From: Rubrobacter tropicus
GTDB lineage: Bacteria; Actinomycetota; Rubrobacteria; Rubrobacterales; Rubrobacteraceae
DNA: 64,000 nucleotides
Direction of reading: 5' to 3'
NCBI RefSeq assembly: GCF_011492945.1
Contig: NZ_CP045119.1
Span: forward strand, 1,860,001-1,924,000
Both the position numbers and the translations under genes were made by a program. This document shows positions 6,340-63,112 of the stretch, piece after piece. The notes beneath the pieces were generated by a model, which worked only from the letters and a program-made list of their open reading frames with translations, was not told the origin of the DNA and made no database searches. Every line of letters begins with the position of its first letter. Positions within the stretch are counted from its first letter, which is position 1.

Positions 6340-7587
6340 TTGATACGGGCCCTGACAAGCTCGCTCCTCCTGGTCTTGGCGAGCTTCGCCCTCGTCGTGA
6401 TGGTGCAGAATCTCCTTGGGTGGACCTTCCTCTCCGGCGACCCCGAGACCGTTTCGACCTTCCTGTCTTCCCTGGCGCAGTTCGCGGCCATACCCGTGAC
6501 CATAGCCTTCGGCGTCGTGGTCGTGGTCATCCAGCAGCAGGCCGCCACGTACACCGGCAGGGCGGGGGCCCTGGTCGTGACCAGTCCGGGCTTCATGTTC
6601 GTCGTCGCCTTGCTCTTCGAGGTGCCCGCTTTCTGCATCCTCCTTTTAGGAGCCCTTGATCTGAGCGGTCAGAGCGTTGGCGAGTCCACCAAAGAATGGG
6701 CGGTGGGGGCGGTGGGACCCGTACTCTTGACCTTCGTGGCCTTGGGGGTGTTTTCTTCCGCGTGGTTCAGGAGGCTGAGCCCGGCGGAGTTCTGCGGGTT
6801 CATGGCGACCAGGGCCGTGGAAGGGCTGAAATCCGGGAACCGCGACGCTGTCTCCCTGGCGGTCCGGGGGCTCGGGGAGTCTTTGAATAACCTGGCCCTT
6901 TCCACGGACTATACGAGTCTCCACCTTTGCATGAACTTCGTCACCCGGTTCCTGAAAGACTACATCTTGGAGCAGAAACCGCGCCTGCTACGCGAAAATC
7001 CCGGCTTCTTCGAGTACCGGTTTCCCGAGAAGCGCACGGATAGCGCGTGGGTCGAGCGGGAGGCTTGCACCTTCGTGAAGGACGCCACGGACGCCCTGCT
7101 GGGAAAGCTGGGCCCCGCAGAGAGCATCTACTATCTGGTGGACGGCCTCCTGCCCTTCGGCGGTGCCGCCATGAACGCCGGAGACGGGGAGGCGTTGGAG
7201 GTCCTGGCAGAAGCCTTCGTCGAGATGGGGACGACCGAAAGGACGTTCGGGATGAGCGTCAATTTCAACACGAGGCCGCTGGAACGTTCCGCCGAAGGGG
7301 TTATATGGGCCCGACAGAACGGTCACCATGAGGCCGGTGATCTACTTTCGGCGGTGTTCTTCGTCCTGTTTGCGTACCTCGACTACCACGTCCGCAGCAT
7401 GGGACCCGAAAGGAAGTTTTCGTCGAATCTCCACGAGGCGAAGGCCAAGGAACTGAAGGATGCCGGCGTAGATTTTGCAAGGGCGGCAAAGGAATCGCGT
7501 GAGAAGTTCCAGGGATTCTGGATTATCCGCTTTCCAGATGCCGACGCCGAACGAGAAGAGGCGTTGAAAAGGCTGAACCGACTATAG
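6340..7587 (+). CDS. DUF2254-like membrane protein
   Basis: TTG at 6340 gives 415 residues. Four hydrophobic helices lie in the first ~145 residues (about 3-22, 45-66, 80-108, 125-145). The central block 'AQFAAIPVTIAFGVVVVVIQQQAATYTGRAGALVVTSPGFMF' resembles the DUF2254 layout. The remaining ~270 residues are soluble and helical. The DUF2254 match is by architecture and partial sequence feel, not a search. No substrate is known for the family. The Shine-Dalgarno is weak, and 6144-6339 upstream shows no gene. Confidence 0.65.
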   Translation: MIRALTSSLLLVLASFALVVMVQNLLGWTFLSGDPETVSTFLSSLAQFAAIPVTIAFGVVVVVIQQQAATYTGRAGALVVTSPGFMFVVALLFEVPAFCILLLGALDLSGQSVGESTKEWAVGAVGPVLLTFVALGVFSSAWFRRLSPAEFCGFMATRAVEGLKSGNRDAVSLAVRGLGESLNNLALSTDYTSLHLCMNFVTRFLKDYILEQKPRLLRENPGFFEYRFPEKRTDSAWVEREACTFVKDATDALLGKLGPAESIYYLVDGLLPFGGAAMNAGDGEALEVLAEAFVEMGTTERTFGMSVNFNTRPLERSAEGVIWARQNGHHEAGDLLSAVFFVLFAYLDYHVRSMGPERKFSSNLHEAKAKELKDAGVDFARAAKESREKFQGFWIIRFPDADAEREEALKRLNRL

Positions 7588-57428: not shown

Positions 57429-60023
57429 CTAGGGCAGGATCTCGACGTACCCGTCCGTTCCATGCACGCGGATCCGCTGCCCATCCCGGATCAGCCGGGT
57501 GGCATGCTCCACCCCCACGACGGCCGGCAAGCCGTACTCCCGTGCGATCACCGCGCCATGGGTCATCAGGCCCCCCACCTCCGTCACCAGGCCCTTGATC
57601 GCGACGAACAGGGGCGTCCAGCTGGGGTCCGTGTAGGCGGTGACCAGGATGTCGCCCGCTTCGAGATCGGCCCCCGCCACGTCCAGGATGACGCGGGCCC
57701 GCCCCTCGATGGTCCCGGCGGAAACCGGCAAGCCGACCAGCGCGCCGGCCGGCAGATCGTCGCGTCGGTACGCCCCGGCGACGGCCTCGCCATCCGACGT
57801 GAGCACCCGGGGCGGCGTGAGCGCCTTATACGAACTGAACGCGTCCTTGCGCTGGCGGATGAGCCGGTCATCCACCTGGTTCGTGCGCACGACGTCCTGG
57901 AGCTCCTGGAAGGTTAGGTGGAAGATGTCTTCCTTCTCACGAAGCACGTGGGCCCGCACGAGGCGCCCGGCTTCTTCCAACAAGGCCTGCTTGTAAACAA
58001 AGTATCGGCTGACCATGCCGTACTTCGGATACTCCCGGTACCCGCTGAAGGTCCGGACCCGGTCGATCATTTGCTTGGCCTCTTCGGCCTTCCGCTTCCC
58101 GTCCGGCAAGGCCCGCAAGCGCTCCAGCAGCTCCCGTTCCTTCTTCCAGGCCTCCTGCCGTCCTTGCTCGAAGCGCCGCGCGCCGGCGCCCGGCTCGAAG
58201 TTCTTGACGTTGCTGAGGATGATGGGCACGAGCGTGGTGGGGCGTTCGCTCCAACGCGGCCTCGTGATGTCGATCTCGCCGACGCAGCGCATGCCGTACT
58301 TGTCGAGCCAGGCCTGAATGGCGTCTCGCGCTTCCCGCCCGCCTGCGAGCCCGGGCAGCTCGTCCAGGAAGCCCTCGTCCTCGACGTGCCGCAGGAAGGC
58401 CACCACGTCCGGACGCGGGCGGATCACGTCCGCGACGTCCAGGAGCGCTAGCCCCATCTCCGACGTGACGTTGTGGGGGACGGACTGCGTAAGCGTGTCG
58501 GCCGCGTTCTTCTCGCCCAGCCACGCCTGCAGCTGCTCATTGAGCCACCAGGTTGCCTCCATTCCCGCCATGATCACCCGATGGCTCTGCGGATCGAACA
58601 GGAGCCGCCTCAGCTCCTGGATGTCCGCCAGGATGAAGTCGAGGAGCGCCGATCCGGACTTCGTCCGGATGTCGCGCTTCAAGTCGGCGAGGGAGGCCTG
58701 GCTGCGCCTGATCAGCTCGGCGACGATGGCCGGATCGGTCTCGATCGGGGCTGGCGCGCCGCCCGCCGGCGCCCCGTCGGGACCCTCGTCCGGGAGCGTC
58801 GGGATGAAGTCGCCGCGGTCGAGGATGGTCTGCAGCGCGTCCCCGATCAGCGGATCGGATTTCCCCAGCATCTCCAGGAAGCCTGCGCGGCTCGCAGGCG
58901 TTGCGAGGCCCCGGGTGACGTCGACGAACAGCCTCCCGCCGGCCTCGTACATGGGCCGGCCTGCCGTCAGCTGCCACAAGGAGATCCCCAGCGGCTTCAT
59001 GGGGTCGGTCATCATCTGCTGATGACCGACGGAGACGTAGACGTGGTTCTCCCGGTCGCCGGCCTCAGGGATAGGGAACAGCGTGGTGATCGGCCGGCTC
59101 TGGACGATCTGGAACCCATCGTCGACCAGGCACCATTCGATGTCCTGGGGGCGGCCGAAGTGGGCTTCGATCCGCCGGCCCAGCTGCGCCAGCCGCACGA
59201 CCTGCGCATCCGTCAGCGCTGCCTGCTCCTGCCGCTCCGGCTCGATCGCATGTTCTTGCGTCCCGCCTGCCGGCGAGGCGTGGATGGCAAGCCGCTTGGT
59301 GGCGACCGCCCTGGCGACGACCTCGCCGTCCCGCACCTTGTAGACGTCCGCGTTTACCAGGCCGGAGACCAGGGCCTCGCCGAGGCCGAAGCTGCCCTCC
59401 ACGGAGGCGACCTTCCGGCTGCCCGTGACGGGGTCGGCCGTGAAGAGGATGCCGGCCGCCTGCGGGAAGACCATCTGCTGCACGACCACGGCCATGTGGA
59501 CCTTCCGGTGGTCCAATCCGTTCCGCAGGCGGTAGGTCACGGCCCGCTCGGTGAAGAGCGAGGCCCAGCACCGGCTGACGTGCTGGAGGATCGCCGCCGG
59601 CCCCACGACGTTCAGGTACGTGTCCTGCTGGCCCGCGAAGGATGCCGTCGGCAAGTCCTCTGCCGTCGCACTGGATCGGACGGCGTAGGCGGCTCTCTCG
59701 CCGAGCCGGGCGAGCGGGCGGGTAATCGCCGCCGCCAGATCGTCGGGGATGGCGGTCCCTTCGAGGGTCCGGCGGATCTCCGCGCTGAGCGCGCGGATCG
59801 CCTCCCGGTCGTCCGGCTTCAGGCGCGACAGCCGATCGAGTCGATCGTCGATCGACGGCGCTTCCGCCATGATCCGCTGGAAGGCGTCCGTCGTCACGCA
59901 GAAGCCAGCCGGCACGCGGAGGCCTTTGATCCGCGAAAGCTCCCCCAGATGCGCGCCCTTGCCGCCAACGACCGCGACCTGCGTCCGGTCGACCTCCTGG
60001 AAACCCAACACGTAGCAGCTCAT
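57429..60023 (-). CDS. rph: Rifampin phosphotransferase (rifamycin-inactivating)
   Basis: ATG at 60023 with GGGAGGGAAGGG directly upstream; 864 residues, normal for the family. 'MSCYVLGFQEVDRTQVAVVG' and 'GKGAHLGELS' start the ATP-grasp-like domain (about 1-310; 'AAYAVRSSATAEDLPTASFAGQQDTYLNV', 'IQVVQSRPITTL'-type end). A long central rifamycin-binding domain follows, then the swivelling phosphohistidine domain (about 775-864) with the catalytic His in 'GGLMTHGAVIAREYGLPAVVGVE'. It phosphorylates the C21 hydroxyl of rifamycins, using ATP and giving AMP and Pi. An RAE-like palindrome lies 520 bases upstream, beyond a chimeric remnant. A PEP synthase is the alternative by fold, but the N-terminus and length are Rph-like. 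Confidence 0.9.
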   Translation of the reverse strand: MSCYVLGFQEVDRTQVAVVGGKGAHLGELSRIKGLRVPAGFCVTTDAFQRIMAEAPSIDDRLDRLSRLKPDDREAIRALSAEIRRTLEGTAIPDDLAAAITRPLARLGERAAYAVRSSATAEDLPTASFAGQQDTYLNVVGPAAILQHVSRCWASLFTERAVTYRLRNGLDHRKVHMAVVVQQMVFPQAAGILFTADPVTGSRKVASVEGSFGLGEALVSGLVNADVYKVRDGEVVARAVATKRLAIHASPAGGTQEHAIEPERQEQAALTDAQVVRLAQLGRRIEAHFGRPQDIEWCLVDDGFQIVQSRPITTLFPIPEAGDRENHVYVSVGHQQMMTDPMKPLGISLWQLTAGRPMYEAGGRLFVDVTRGLATPASRAGFLEMLGKSDPLIGDALQTILDRGDFIPTLPDEGPDGAPAGGAPAPIETDPAIVAELIRRSQASLADLKRDIRTKSGSALLDFILADIQELRRLLFDPQSHRVIMAGMEATWWLNEQLQAWLGEKNAADTLTQSVPHNVTSEMGLALLDVADVIRPRPDVVAFLRHVEDEGFLDELPGLAGGREARDAIQAWLDKYGMRCVGEIDITRPRWSERPTTLVPIILSNVKNFEPGAGARRFEQGRQEAWKKERELLERLRALPDGKRKAEEAKQMIDRVRTFSGYREYPKYGMVSRYFVYKQALLEEAGRLVRAHVLREKEDIFHLTFQELQDVVRTNQVDDRLIRQRKDAFSSYKALTPPRVLTSDGEAVAGAYRRDDLPAGALVGLPVSAGTIEGRARVILDVAGADLEAGDILVTAYTDPSWTPLFVAIKGLVTEVGGLMTHGAVIAREYGLPAVVGVEHATRLIRDGQRIRVHGTDGYVEILP

Positions 60024-60046
60024 CCCTTCCCTCCCTCGTGCGTTCT

Positions 60047-60487
60047 CTAAAGAACGTCGCAACGTCTCACCGGCCCCCACCCGCTCAAGGAATGGATCCC
60101 GAGCGCGTCGCGGCGTAGGTCCCATTCCGGCTCCTCGGCCAGCTCGACCTCGGAGATCAGGTGGCTGGTCGTCGGATCCCACCCGGGGAACTCGATGCCG
60201 GCGGCCTTCCGGATCAGATCGCGTCCGCCGTTGCGCCCGACGAGGTATTCCGCCCGCAGCGACGGGCCGTCGGCCAGCTCCACGTCGACGCCGGCTTCGC
60301 CCCGCGCACCATCGGGCGCACCGGCCGGCCGACCGGTACCAGCGGCGCGCCGACACGGGCCAGCAGCTCCGCGAAGGCCGGAGGCGCGCACACGCGCCTC
60401 CGCGCCGGGTGCCCGCAACCGCACCGCGGGTCCCGCCATCGGTTCGACGTCCCCGCGCGACCCACACGCCGACAACAACACACGCAT
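60047..60487 (-). pseudogene. Chimeric remnant: glycosyltransferase N-terminus fused to Rox-like monooxygenase piece
   Basis: ATG at 60487. 'MRVLLSACGSRGDVEPMAGP' with 'AVRLRAPGAEARVRA' is the start of a GT1/GtfB-like glycosyltransferase. Its continuation 'APPAFAELLARVGAPLVPVGRPVRPMV' is in another frame (one base off). Then, in the first frame, 'VDVELADGPSLRAEYLVGRNGGRDLIRKAAGIEFPGWDPTT' and 'EEPEWDLRRDALGIH' match the middle of a rifampin-monooxygenase (Rox)-type flavoprotein. Neither enzyme is complete. Both parent families include rifamycin-inactivating members. It lies between the RAE-like site and rph. Confidence 0.7.
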
Positions 60488-60543
60488 TTCGTTACTCTAA
60501 TCTCCGTGGGTTCTGGCCTCGGCCGGCATTATGCGCCACGACC

Positions 60544-60562
60544 GGGGCTTGAAGCAAGCCCC
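60544..60562. promoter_or_regulatory. Rifamycin-associated element (RAE)-like palindrome
   Basis: GGGGCTTGAAGCAAGCCCC is a perfect 19-bp inverted repeat (centre A) that matches the RAE pattern known upstream of rph, rox and helR genes in actinobacteria. On the minus strand a TTGCTT (inside the palindrome) and CATAAT (60533-60528) are 18 bases apart, a plausible promoter for the remnant-rph transcript. The start codon of the remnant is about 57 bases away. Confidence 0.75.
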
Positions 60563-61096
60563 GGGGCGCTGTATATTGGAAGTGGAAGGGAGTGGGCAGG
60601 CCTACTCACAGGGTCCGCGACTCCCTCGTGCAGCGCCGCGGACGGTGTCATAGGTTACGCCCTCGACGAGAACCGATGACTGGCGACTGAGCCCGCGCTT
60701 CGCGAATCACGCGGGTCATCCGTCACCATCATGCCGACTCGCCGCGTCCTTCTGGCGATCAGGCTTCGAGTCTCATCGAAAATCGAGCCCGTTGGGGGTA
60801 GGTTTACGGGTTCTTAGGCTTTGAGGTTCCGAGGGGTGGTGGGTCGGGGCCCGCCCGCGGCCTCGTGGCGCACCCCTGAAAACCTGAGTGCCTAAAAACC
60901 TCAAGGCCTCACCAACGATGAGGGTCGGTCCTTCCGCAAACCGCTGTAGCTTGGCCGGGGCAGATCGGCGCGTACAAGGTTTTTACGCACCGACGATTCT
61001 TGCGAGCCTGGGCCGCCGAAATCGGGCTTGAGCCGGATCTCTCGTGGCTCGTGCGGGAGAGGCGCATGGCTGCACAGTCCGAACACGACCTCTAAG
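60563..61096. other. Intergenic stretch with a second repeat type
   Basis: About 530 bases between the RAE-like site and the lctP end. Bases 60818-60910 contain TTCTTAGGCTTTGAGGTTCC and, further on, an imperfect inverted version (CCTGAAAACCTGAGTGCC, AAAAACCTCAAGGCC). No gene supported. Confidence 0.45.
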
Positions 61097-62486
61097 CTAG
61101 GACACCATCCCGATGACCGCCAAGACGACGATGGAAACCACGACGGGGGCCATGGCGAGGCGCGTGATCTCACCCTCCCGCCCCACGAGCCCGGTCGCCG
61201 TCGCCGCCAGCACGATTCGCTGAGGAGCCAACAAACTCGCGTGGCTCCCCGACACGTTCTGCGAGGCCGCCGCGAGTGGCTCCGAGATGCCGAGCCCGCG
61301 CGCGGCCTCGATCTGGAGCGGCATGAAGAGCGCGTTGGAGGCCGCGTTGGATCCCGCGAGCGCCCCCCCGAAAGCACCGAGAACGGGCAGGATGGCGGGG
61401 TAGAGGCTCCCGAAACGCCTGGCTTCGGTCGCCAGCACCCCGGCCGCTCCACCGTCTGCCAAGATCGCCCCGGCGAGCACGAAGGTGAGCACAGCACCCG
61501 CGGTCGGGAGCCACTGGCGGGTCGTGCTGTTCAGCGCGTTGCCGAACGTTCCCGGACCGACCGCGAACAGTGTGGAGGCGAAGATCGAGGAGGCAAGGAG
61601 CGGCAGGCCCGGTCCGTCGATCGCGGGCCCGATCCAGGCCACAGAGCCGGGCCCCCCGCCCGCGTTTATCAGGACGAGTAGGGTAAGGAGAAATGCGTAG
61701 GGCAGCAGCGCGCGCACCGGGGCGCCCCCGGCCCGGCCGATCCGGAGCCCGAGAAAGATTGCCGTCGCCGCGAGCCCACCGACGGCGCCCGAGAGCTCCG
61801 GGACTAGGAAGAGGCTGGTCGCGAGCGTCCCGGCTCCTGCCGCGAGGCCAAGCAGGGCCGCCTCCGCGCCGCGGCGCCTGACACCCGACCATCCGCCGGC
61901 GAGCGCGACCGCGGCGACGCCGTAGACGGGGAAGAGGGGAACGCTCAACAGGGCGCTCCAGTCCGAGAGCTCGACGAAGCCCATCCCGGCGAGATCCGCC
62001 CCGATCACGGTCCCAACCCCCAAAGCCCCCACGGCACCGCGCACTGCCCCAACTCGCCAGCACCGCCGCCTTTAACGGCGAGAAACCGGCGGCGAGCAGT
62101 ATGGGGCGCTTATTACCACCGCCACCCCGAACCCCGTAACCGACTCGAAGAACGGTGCCACCCCGACGACCACCCCCGCGGCGAGCGCGACGGGATCGGG
62201 CTCCAACCGCCCCAGAAATCGCGACACCTCCCCGACCGCCCCGCCAGCCGCGAGCACGTTGTACAGCAACAAACCGCCGAAGAGAACGAACAACACCCGC
62301 CCCGACGTCCCGAGCCCCCCATCAAAGCCCCGAACAGCCCCGACCCCCGAACGCCAACGCCCCGGCCACGGCCGCCCCGAGCGTCGCCACCCCGACCCAT
62401 ACCGCGGGCCGCCCGAGCACCAGAAGCCCGACCCCGGCCACCACGAACGGCGCAAGGGCCGCGAAGAATAGAAAAGCTTCTACCAT
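61097..62486 (-). pseudogene. lctP: L-lactate permease (LctP-family), multiply frameshifted
   Basis: ATG at 62486. Pieces in order: 'MVEAFLFFAALAPFVVAGVG' (first frame); 'GRVLFVLFGGLLLYNVLAAGGAVGEV' and 'VAPFFESVTGFGVAVVISAP' (second); 'ILLAAGFSPLKAAVLASWG' (third); then 'GALGVGTVIGADLAGMGFVELSDWSALL' through 'ALLAPQRIVLAATATGLVGREGEI' to the stop. The combined reading is a normal LctP of about 465 residues. It needs about five single-base additions, mostly in G or C runs (e.g. 62313-62320, 62098-62101, 62027-62040). Lactate/glycolate:proton import is the family role. Decay or assembly error cannot be separated here. Confidence 0.85.
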
Positions 62487-62502
62487 GATAGAATCTCTTC
62501 TA
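62469..62502. promoter_or_regulatory. Tandem palindromic operator TAGAA-N4-TTCTA
   Basis: Two copies of the 14-bp palindrome TAGAA-N4-TTCTA at 62469-62482 and 62489-62502, centres 20 bases apart (two helical turns). The pair covers the lctP start and sits just before the XRE-cupin start, the usual place for an auto-regulated divergent operator. Confidence 0.7.
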
Positions 62503-62506
62503 CCAA

Positions 62507-63112
62507 ATGACGGAGGACAGCGCAACGGTGGACTCTCGGATGGTGGAGGCGGTTTCGTCCGATCGGCTGGGCGGTCGCGTCAGGGAGTTGCGTCGCGGGC
62601 GGGGGTTGACGCTCGAGGAGTTGGCCGGCCGGTCGGGGGTGAGCCGGGCCATGATCTCCAAGCTCGAACGCGGCGAGAAGAACCCGACGCTGGTGGTCGC
62701 CGCGAGGCTTGCCGAGGGGCTGGGTGTTACGCTCTCGCGCCTGGCGGGCACGGAAGAAAAACGCGAAGTCGTCGTGGTGCGGAAAGAGAACCGCCTGGTC
62801 ATGCGCGACCCCGAGACGGGTTTCGAGCGTCAGTTGCTATCCCCGACGTTCGCGGGACGGGGCGTCGAGTTCGTCCGCAACGTGATCCCCACCGGCGGCA
62901 CTTCCGGCGAGTTCCCGCCCCACAGCAGGGGCGTCAGGGAGCACATCGTTGTGGAGAAGGGCGAGCTGTCGGCGACCCTCGGCGGTGAAGAACACCGGCT
63001 GCGGCAAGGCGACGCCCTTTACTTCGAGGCAGACGTCCCGCACCGCTTCGACAACACCGGGCCGGGAGAGTGCAGCTACTACCTCGTCATAGACTACTCG
63101 GGCGCCCCTTGA
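62507..63112 (+). CDS. XRE-family regulator with cupin domain
   Basis: 201 residues from ATG 62507 (no clear ribosome site, possibly near-leaderless; ATG 62540 is an alternative). HTH at about 22-75: 'RVRELRRGRGLTLEELAGRSGVSRAMISKLERGEKNPTLVVAARLAEGLGVTLSRL'. Cupin at about 125-195: 'PTGGTSGEFPPHSRGVREHIVVEKGELSATLGGEEHRLRQGDALYFEADVPHRFDN'. These regulators sense a small metabolite in the cupin and control a nearby transporter or catabolic gene; lactate or a related acid is inferred from the divergent lctP. Confidence 0.88.
   Translation: MTEDSATVDSRMVEAVSSDRLGGRVRELRRGRGLTLEELAGRSGVSRAMISKLERGEKNPTLVVAARLAEGLGVTLSRLAGTEEKREVVVVRKENRLVMRDPETGFERQLLSPTFAGRGVEFVRNVIPTGGTSGEFPPHSRGVREHIVVEKGELSATLGGEEHRLRQGDALYFEADVPHRFDNTGPGECSYYLVIDYSGAP

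Follow-up and report, generated by a model that had tools for sequence, protein, structure and literature searches.

The open reading frame (ORF) directly upstream of rph in Rubrobacter tropicus is very probably the deletion scar of an older operon, an rgt-like glycosyltransferase (GT) gene followed by a rox-like FAD monooxygenase (FMO) gene under the control of a rifamycin-associated element (RAE), whose place behind that drug-responsive promoter has been taken by rph. Comparison of RAE loci indicates that GT, FMO and rph probably occupied a shared RAE in succession, leaving in soil bacteria a readable record of resistance genes that succeed each other behind one drug-responsive switch.

The ORF lies on the complementary strand of the 64,000-nt stretch analyzed here (the window), at 60047..60487; it comprises 146 codons and ends 23 nt before the rph start. 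The initial annotation had described it as the first ~35 residues of a GT joined to an internal segment of a Rox-like FMO, with further GT sequence one frame over. NCBIfam matches and DNA alignment with a related locus (L138) bear out both statements, and the GT part proved somewhat longer than had been stated. Specifically, the Rgt model NF000354 is matched twice, by chimera residues 1-48 (E 4e-6) and, at model positions 31-70, by the overlapping +1 frame (60214-60483; E 8e-7). The Rgt-like, GT1-type 5' remnant of ~65 codons (60293..60487, complementary strand) is therefore readable in two frames, ~35 residues in frame 0 and the remainder, to about codon 65, in +1. The FMO remnant that follows (60068..60292, same strand) corresponds to about codons 128-205 of a Rox-like FMO according to NF005303, NF033145 and DNA alignments with L138 and a second relative, L137. 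Chimera residues 62-135 match positions 128-201 of a PRK06834-type FMO model (E 2.5e-28), and the same piece matches positions 127-185 of the rifampin monooxygenase model NF033145 (E 5e-13), so that both fragments fall to rifamycin-type families. Weak Pfam matches were to FAD_binding_3 and Glyco_transf_28. The FMO piece is 72% identical to the intact FMO of a genome of the same genus. From the RAE onward the window is collinear at the DNA level with the RAE, shortened GT and FMO of L138, apart from two deletions: one of 2 nt near 60386, which shifts the GT frame, and one of 480 nt, from GT codon ~65 to FMO codon 128, which forms the GT/FMO joint.

Neither remnant can be assigned to its parent family, as Rgt requires a full-length GT1 fold above 800 bits (NF000354) and ~65 codons are left in two frames, while Rox requires a full-length match above 800 bits (NF033145) and ~75 codons are left. 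With a disrupted frame, partial domains and no purifying selection, the chimera has the marks of a pseudogene. Substitutions private to its FMO piece are distributed 7:4:3 over codon positions 1, 2 and 3, and those private to the FMO piece of L132, another relative, 8:10:9; in the pooled intact FMOs the distribution is 11:5:31, from which the window differs (Fisher p = 0.005). Private changes show no third-position bias, and the window FMO piece is therefore no longer held as protein. Hence a functional fusion protein, be it a novel GT-FMO enzyme or a regulator, is scarcely credible: the frame is open and holds recognizable pieces of both families, but the GT frame is broken after ~35 codons, neither catalytic domain is complete and codon-position bias is absent. 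Moreover, no intact fused GT-FMO ORF is conserved in the relatives, where frames and breakpoints differ from genome to genome, and on this ground the fusion was rejected. An assembly artefact joining unrelated pieces is equally improbable, given that the locus lies inside a 4.38-Mb contig and that the same gene order, with other breakpoints, recurs in independent assemblies.

The switch behind which these remnants lie had escaped the initial annotation, as had the wide spread of GT remnants before rph. The RAE, a 19-bp palindrome GGGGCTTGCTTCAAGCCCC at 60544..60562 on the complementary strand, is the sole exact match in the window and the one site in the genome at the tolerance applied; the palindrome also precedes rph in 140 other retrieved loci. 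Earlier work placed the RAE ahead of rgt, rox and helR, overlapping the -35 element of a second promoter and required for induction (PMC10719064). In the window, a putative promoter P2 (60528..60557, complementary strand) can be read from the sequence as TTGCTT (60552-60557, within the RAE), an 18-nt spacer and CATAAT (60528-60533), with the same hexamer spacing in relatives. This layout agrees with that of helD/helR, in which the RAE overlaps the P2 -35 (PMC10719064), and by analogy with the same work TATACA at 60570..60575 (same strand) is a possible, weak -10 of an upstream promoter P1. In its palindrome overlapping the -35 of a downstream promoter, window rph resembles the actinobacterial rifamycin resistance genes under RAE control (rgt, rox, helR, arr and rph), and among the loci studied here the RAE was found before rph-, rox-, rgt- and helR-like genes. 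It differs in that, at the window RAE, what is left of two former genes stands ahead of the present one, whereas the literature consulted treats RAE genes singly.

The current gene is intact. Window rph (57429..60023, complementary strand) encodes a rifamycin phosphotransferase of 864 aa that scores 1628.6 bits against NF041857 over residues 4-863 (cut-off 999), placing it in the family, with rifampin phosphorylation itself predicted. The protein aligns over its full length with the Rph of Listeria (RPH-Lm, 5fbs; PMC4844700) at 1128 bits, and the catalytic swivel histidine, His825 of RPH-Lm, is conserved as His822 in the motif THGAVIAREYG. The Listeria gene differs in host and promoter and is not known to be RAE-controlled. 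A genome scan for another close intact FMO or GT returned none, the best other FMO being 32% identical, and the earlier statement that only the phosphotransferase remains whole holds. Beside the rph locus, a lactate permease gene of the LctP family (window 61097-62525) is broken over several frames.

Immediately upstream of rph is a 44-nt segment (60024..60067, complementary strand), here called module A, GCGACGTTCTTTAGAGAACGCACGAGGGAGGGAAGGG, which includes the rph Shine-Dalgarno sequence and is shared with relatives. Module A directly precedes rph in the window, L132, L130 and L136, and also in a Ktedonobacterales rph locus that has no RAE (L024). A different segment, module B, precedes rph in L140, L135 and a Myxococcus locus, again without RAE (L008). 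From these two different upstream segments it would seem that rph reached RAE sites in Rubrobacteraceae on two or more occasions. The Myxococcus protein is 91% identical to window Rph, with no RAE within 900 nt upstream of its gene, a likeness that suggests a recent transfer of rph between phyla.

The order of events can be read from RAE neighborhoods, of which every one in the family Rubrobacteraceae and some outside it were compared; the relatives are few (9 genomes of the genus, several of them fragmented drafts, with two loci ended by contig ends). In another family of the phylum, L144 holds an intact arrangement of RAE, GT (402 codons) and FMO (464 codons). L137 has the RAE, a shortened GT and a whole FMO, and L138 the same with an FMO that runs to the contig end, while L141 and L142 have RAE and FMO with the GT absent. 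The rph gene appears in L140 after the RAE and FMO codons 1-48; in L132 and L130, as in the window, after remnants of both GT and FMO; in L136 after a GT remnant; and in L131, L133 and L135 directly after the RAE. The FMO/rph junction is identical in sequence in the window, L132 and L130, but each of the three has its own upstream deletions, and the junction is therefore older than the individual fusions. In genome G036, an intact RAE-FMO (L141) and the RAE-FMO remnant-rph arrangement (L140) occupy separate loci. The rph of L130 is flanked on both sides by partial FMO copies: downstream of it lies another FMO fragment (codons 46-142; 6512-6779 of that locus), which overlaps in sequence with the upstream FMO remnant.

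These comparisons qualify the proposal, made in the initial annotation, that the locus had held up to three inactivation types. Remains of an Rgt-like and a Rox-like gene are present, and both families are RAE-linked in relatives: intact FMOs occur in Rubrobacteraceae and an intact GT-FMO pair in L144, outside the family. Three working enzymes side by side find no such backing, as no RAE-GT-FMO-rph locus with all three intact was seen among the genomes searched, nor did any relative examined show rph first joining an intact GT-FMO operon. In the nearest relatives (L137, L138) the GT was already truncated before rph came, and succession at one promoter therefore fits better than coexistence. 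The intact RAE-linked FMOs score 419-484 bits against NF033145 (cut-off 800) and 700-930 against PRK06834, and the intact RAE-linked GTs 415-581 bits against NF000354 (cut-off 800); being below the equivalog cut-offs, they are called Rox-like and Rgt-like. From family, RAE control and position, we infer that the GT/FMO pair acts on rifamycins. A search for the Rgt family in 39 genomes of the class at E 1e-60 gave 0 matches and no control match either, so that absence is not implied.

Collectively, these data support a model in which the older operon consisted of RAE, GT and FMO, as still seen intact in L144, and in which GT and FMO would have been truncated successively, as in the close relatives. 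The rph gene carries its own upstream segment, joined inside the FMO, and its transcription would start at the RAE promoter that was left in place. What stays alive of the older operon would be the switch and the start region, the chimera yielding no working enzyme.

In Streptomyces, Micromonospora and Plantactinospora, too, the same GT start (VRVLLSTYGGRGDVEP...), worn down to differing lengths, separates rph from the RAE. With the old rgt start defined as the first NTG 70-84 nt after the RAE, frame ignored, 56 non-redundant loci, mostly from one genus, were available for analysis. Forty-six of them have the old GT start in one common frame with respect to rph (p 8e-14), and when distinct leader lengths are counted, as a guard against shared ancestry, 32 of 42 keep that frame (p 1.6e-8). 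The frame hypothesis arose from the first 80 loci; those added afterwards, serving as a replication set, give 33 of 41 in frame (p 8e-10) and 26 of 34 distinct lengths (p 3e-7). Thirty-nine of the 46 kept-frame leaders end exactly in an ATGA that overlaps the rph start. Seven of the 56 leaders are in the frame of rph itself, six of these reading into rph without a stop, and three are in the third frame. Counted with no start chosen, stops number 13 in 3990 codons of the kept frame vs 42 in 4052 and 97 in 4031 of the others, a density 3-7 times lower that extends to the part not derived from GT.

Could this retention be a by-product of shared ancestry or codon-like composition and not of selection for translation? 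One genus supplies most loci, the leaders stem from coding DNA with few stops in its own frame, and loci that have a leader show only a small difference from those that lack one in how accessible the rph start is predicted to be (0.38 vs 0.45 unpaired; p = 0.009, with length as a confounder). We nevertheless regard this as improbable, because the frame persists across the distinct lengths, clean pairwise deletions between leaders measure 54, 135, 153 and 3 nt, stops in the kept frame are rare also outside the GT-derived part, and the distance from RAE to start codon is not limited to multiples of three. A conserved leader peptide was also considered and rejected. Substitutions are even over codon positions (71:54:48 in the larger pair set, 40:51:44 in the smaller) and leader G+C by codon position (0.71/0.66/0.75) is not coding-like; the test is of limited power, its control, the first 60 nt of rph, showing little third-position bias in the small pair set and some in the larger.

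The start of the dead GT thus seems to have been preserved as a leader that is translated ahead of rph, its frame retained and its peptide not, an unusual case of a dead gene kept solely for its reading frame. The frame pattern is most simply read as a need for ribosomes that initiate at the old rgt start to get as far as the rph start. Translational coupling would hand ribosomes loaded there on to rph, which in these loci has its own ribosome site, and the leader may serve reinitiation at the rph start or shield the transcript from early termination. Two direct questions follow: how translation of rph proceeds once the RAE is induced, and for what reason the stub is retained in Streptomyces. 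RAE and rph are known kinds. In the literature searched, neither the series of successions nor the conservation of a leader by frame alone has been described, and no account of a leader ORF before rph was found, but the 2014 RAE/rph paper was not part of that literature and an earlier account is possible.

ATGA overlaps have been shown to couple translation by termination-reinitiation (PMC6728339), and the 39 leader ORFs overlap the rph start in this way. Termination-reinitiation pairs are usually two working genes, however, whereas the ORF before rph is a dead gene fragment with an unconserved peptide. The short ORF that precedes iraD (PMC5574718) is likewise coupled to the functional gene behind it, but the rph leader derives from a resistance gene and no regulator or drug-dependent step is known for it.

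Whether the chimera itself works as a translated leader for rph in R. tropicus, as a coupling or anti-polarity element of the kind that GT-derived leaders seem to be in Streptomyces, is more doubtful. Beginning at the old rgt start, it stays open for 146 codons and closes just 23 nt before rph, frame retention is strong in the Actinomycetes, and the GT remnant ORFs of L137 and L138 overlap the FMO start via ATGA at their ends. Its stop, however, falls short of rph, where the 39 Actinomycete leaders, like those of L137 and L138 for FMO, overlap the next start. In addition, window rph has a strong ribosome site of its own (GGGAGGG), and the frame is not conserved among Rubrobacteraceae leaders before rph: two of the four made of GT or FMO remnants are broken (L130, L132), and that of L136 is out of frame. 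Long open frames come cheaply at the G+C of the window, and the -1 frame is also open across the same stretch. Coupling over the 23-nt gap is conceivable, and a leader role is possible; no function is claimed. The window leader was also folded in search of a structured attenuator, and at z = -0.87 nothing unusual appeared; a search for an intrinsic terminator between the chimera and rph gave none.

A broader reading, to which we give an even chance, is that the RAE promoter and the rgt translation start form a retained launch pad, the stub being kept as a readable leader when rox, rph and, once, helR replaced the gene. Selection would act on the translation of the stub, not on its peptide, and the window chimera would be one stage. 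The helR case is a Streptomyces locus (L120) where a remnant of the GT start, with a stop, lies between the RAE and a helR-like gene; here the stub precedes yet another, third type of resistance gene. A GT remnant as a feature of all RAE genes was rejected: apart from L120, the RAE-rox, RAE-helR and RAE-arr-like loci mostly have none. In three further loci (L159, L162, L163) the leader is fused in frame to rph and would be a possible N-terminal extension of Rph, and in L159 and L163 tandem GLGGLGG/RLGRLG repeats stand just before the rph start.
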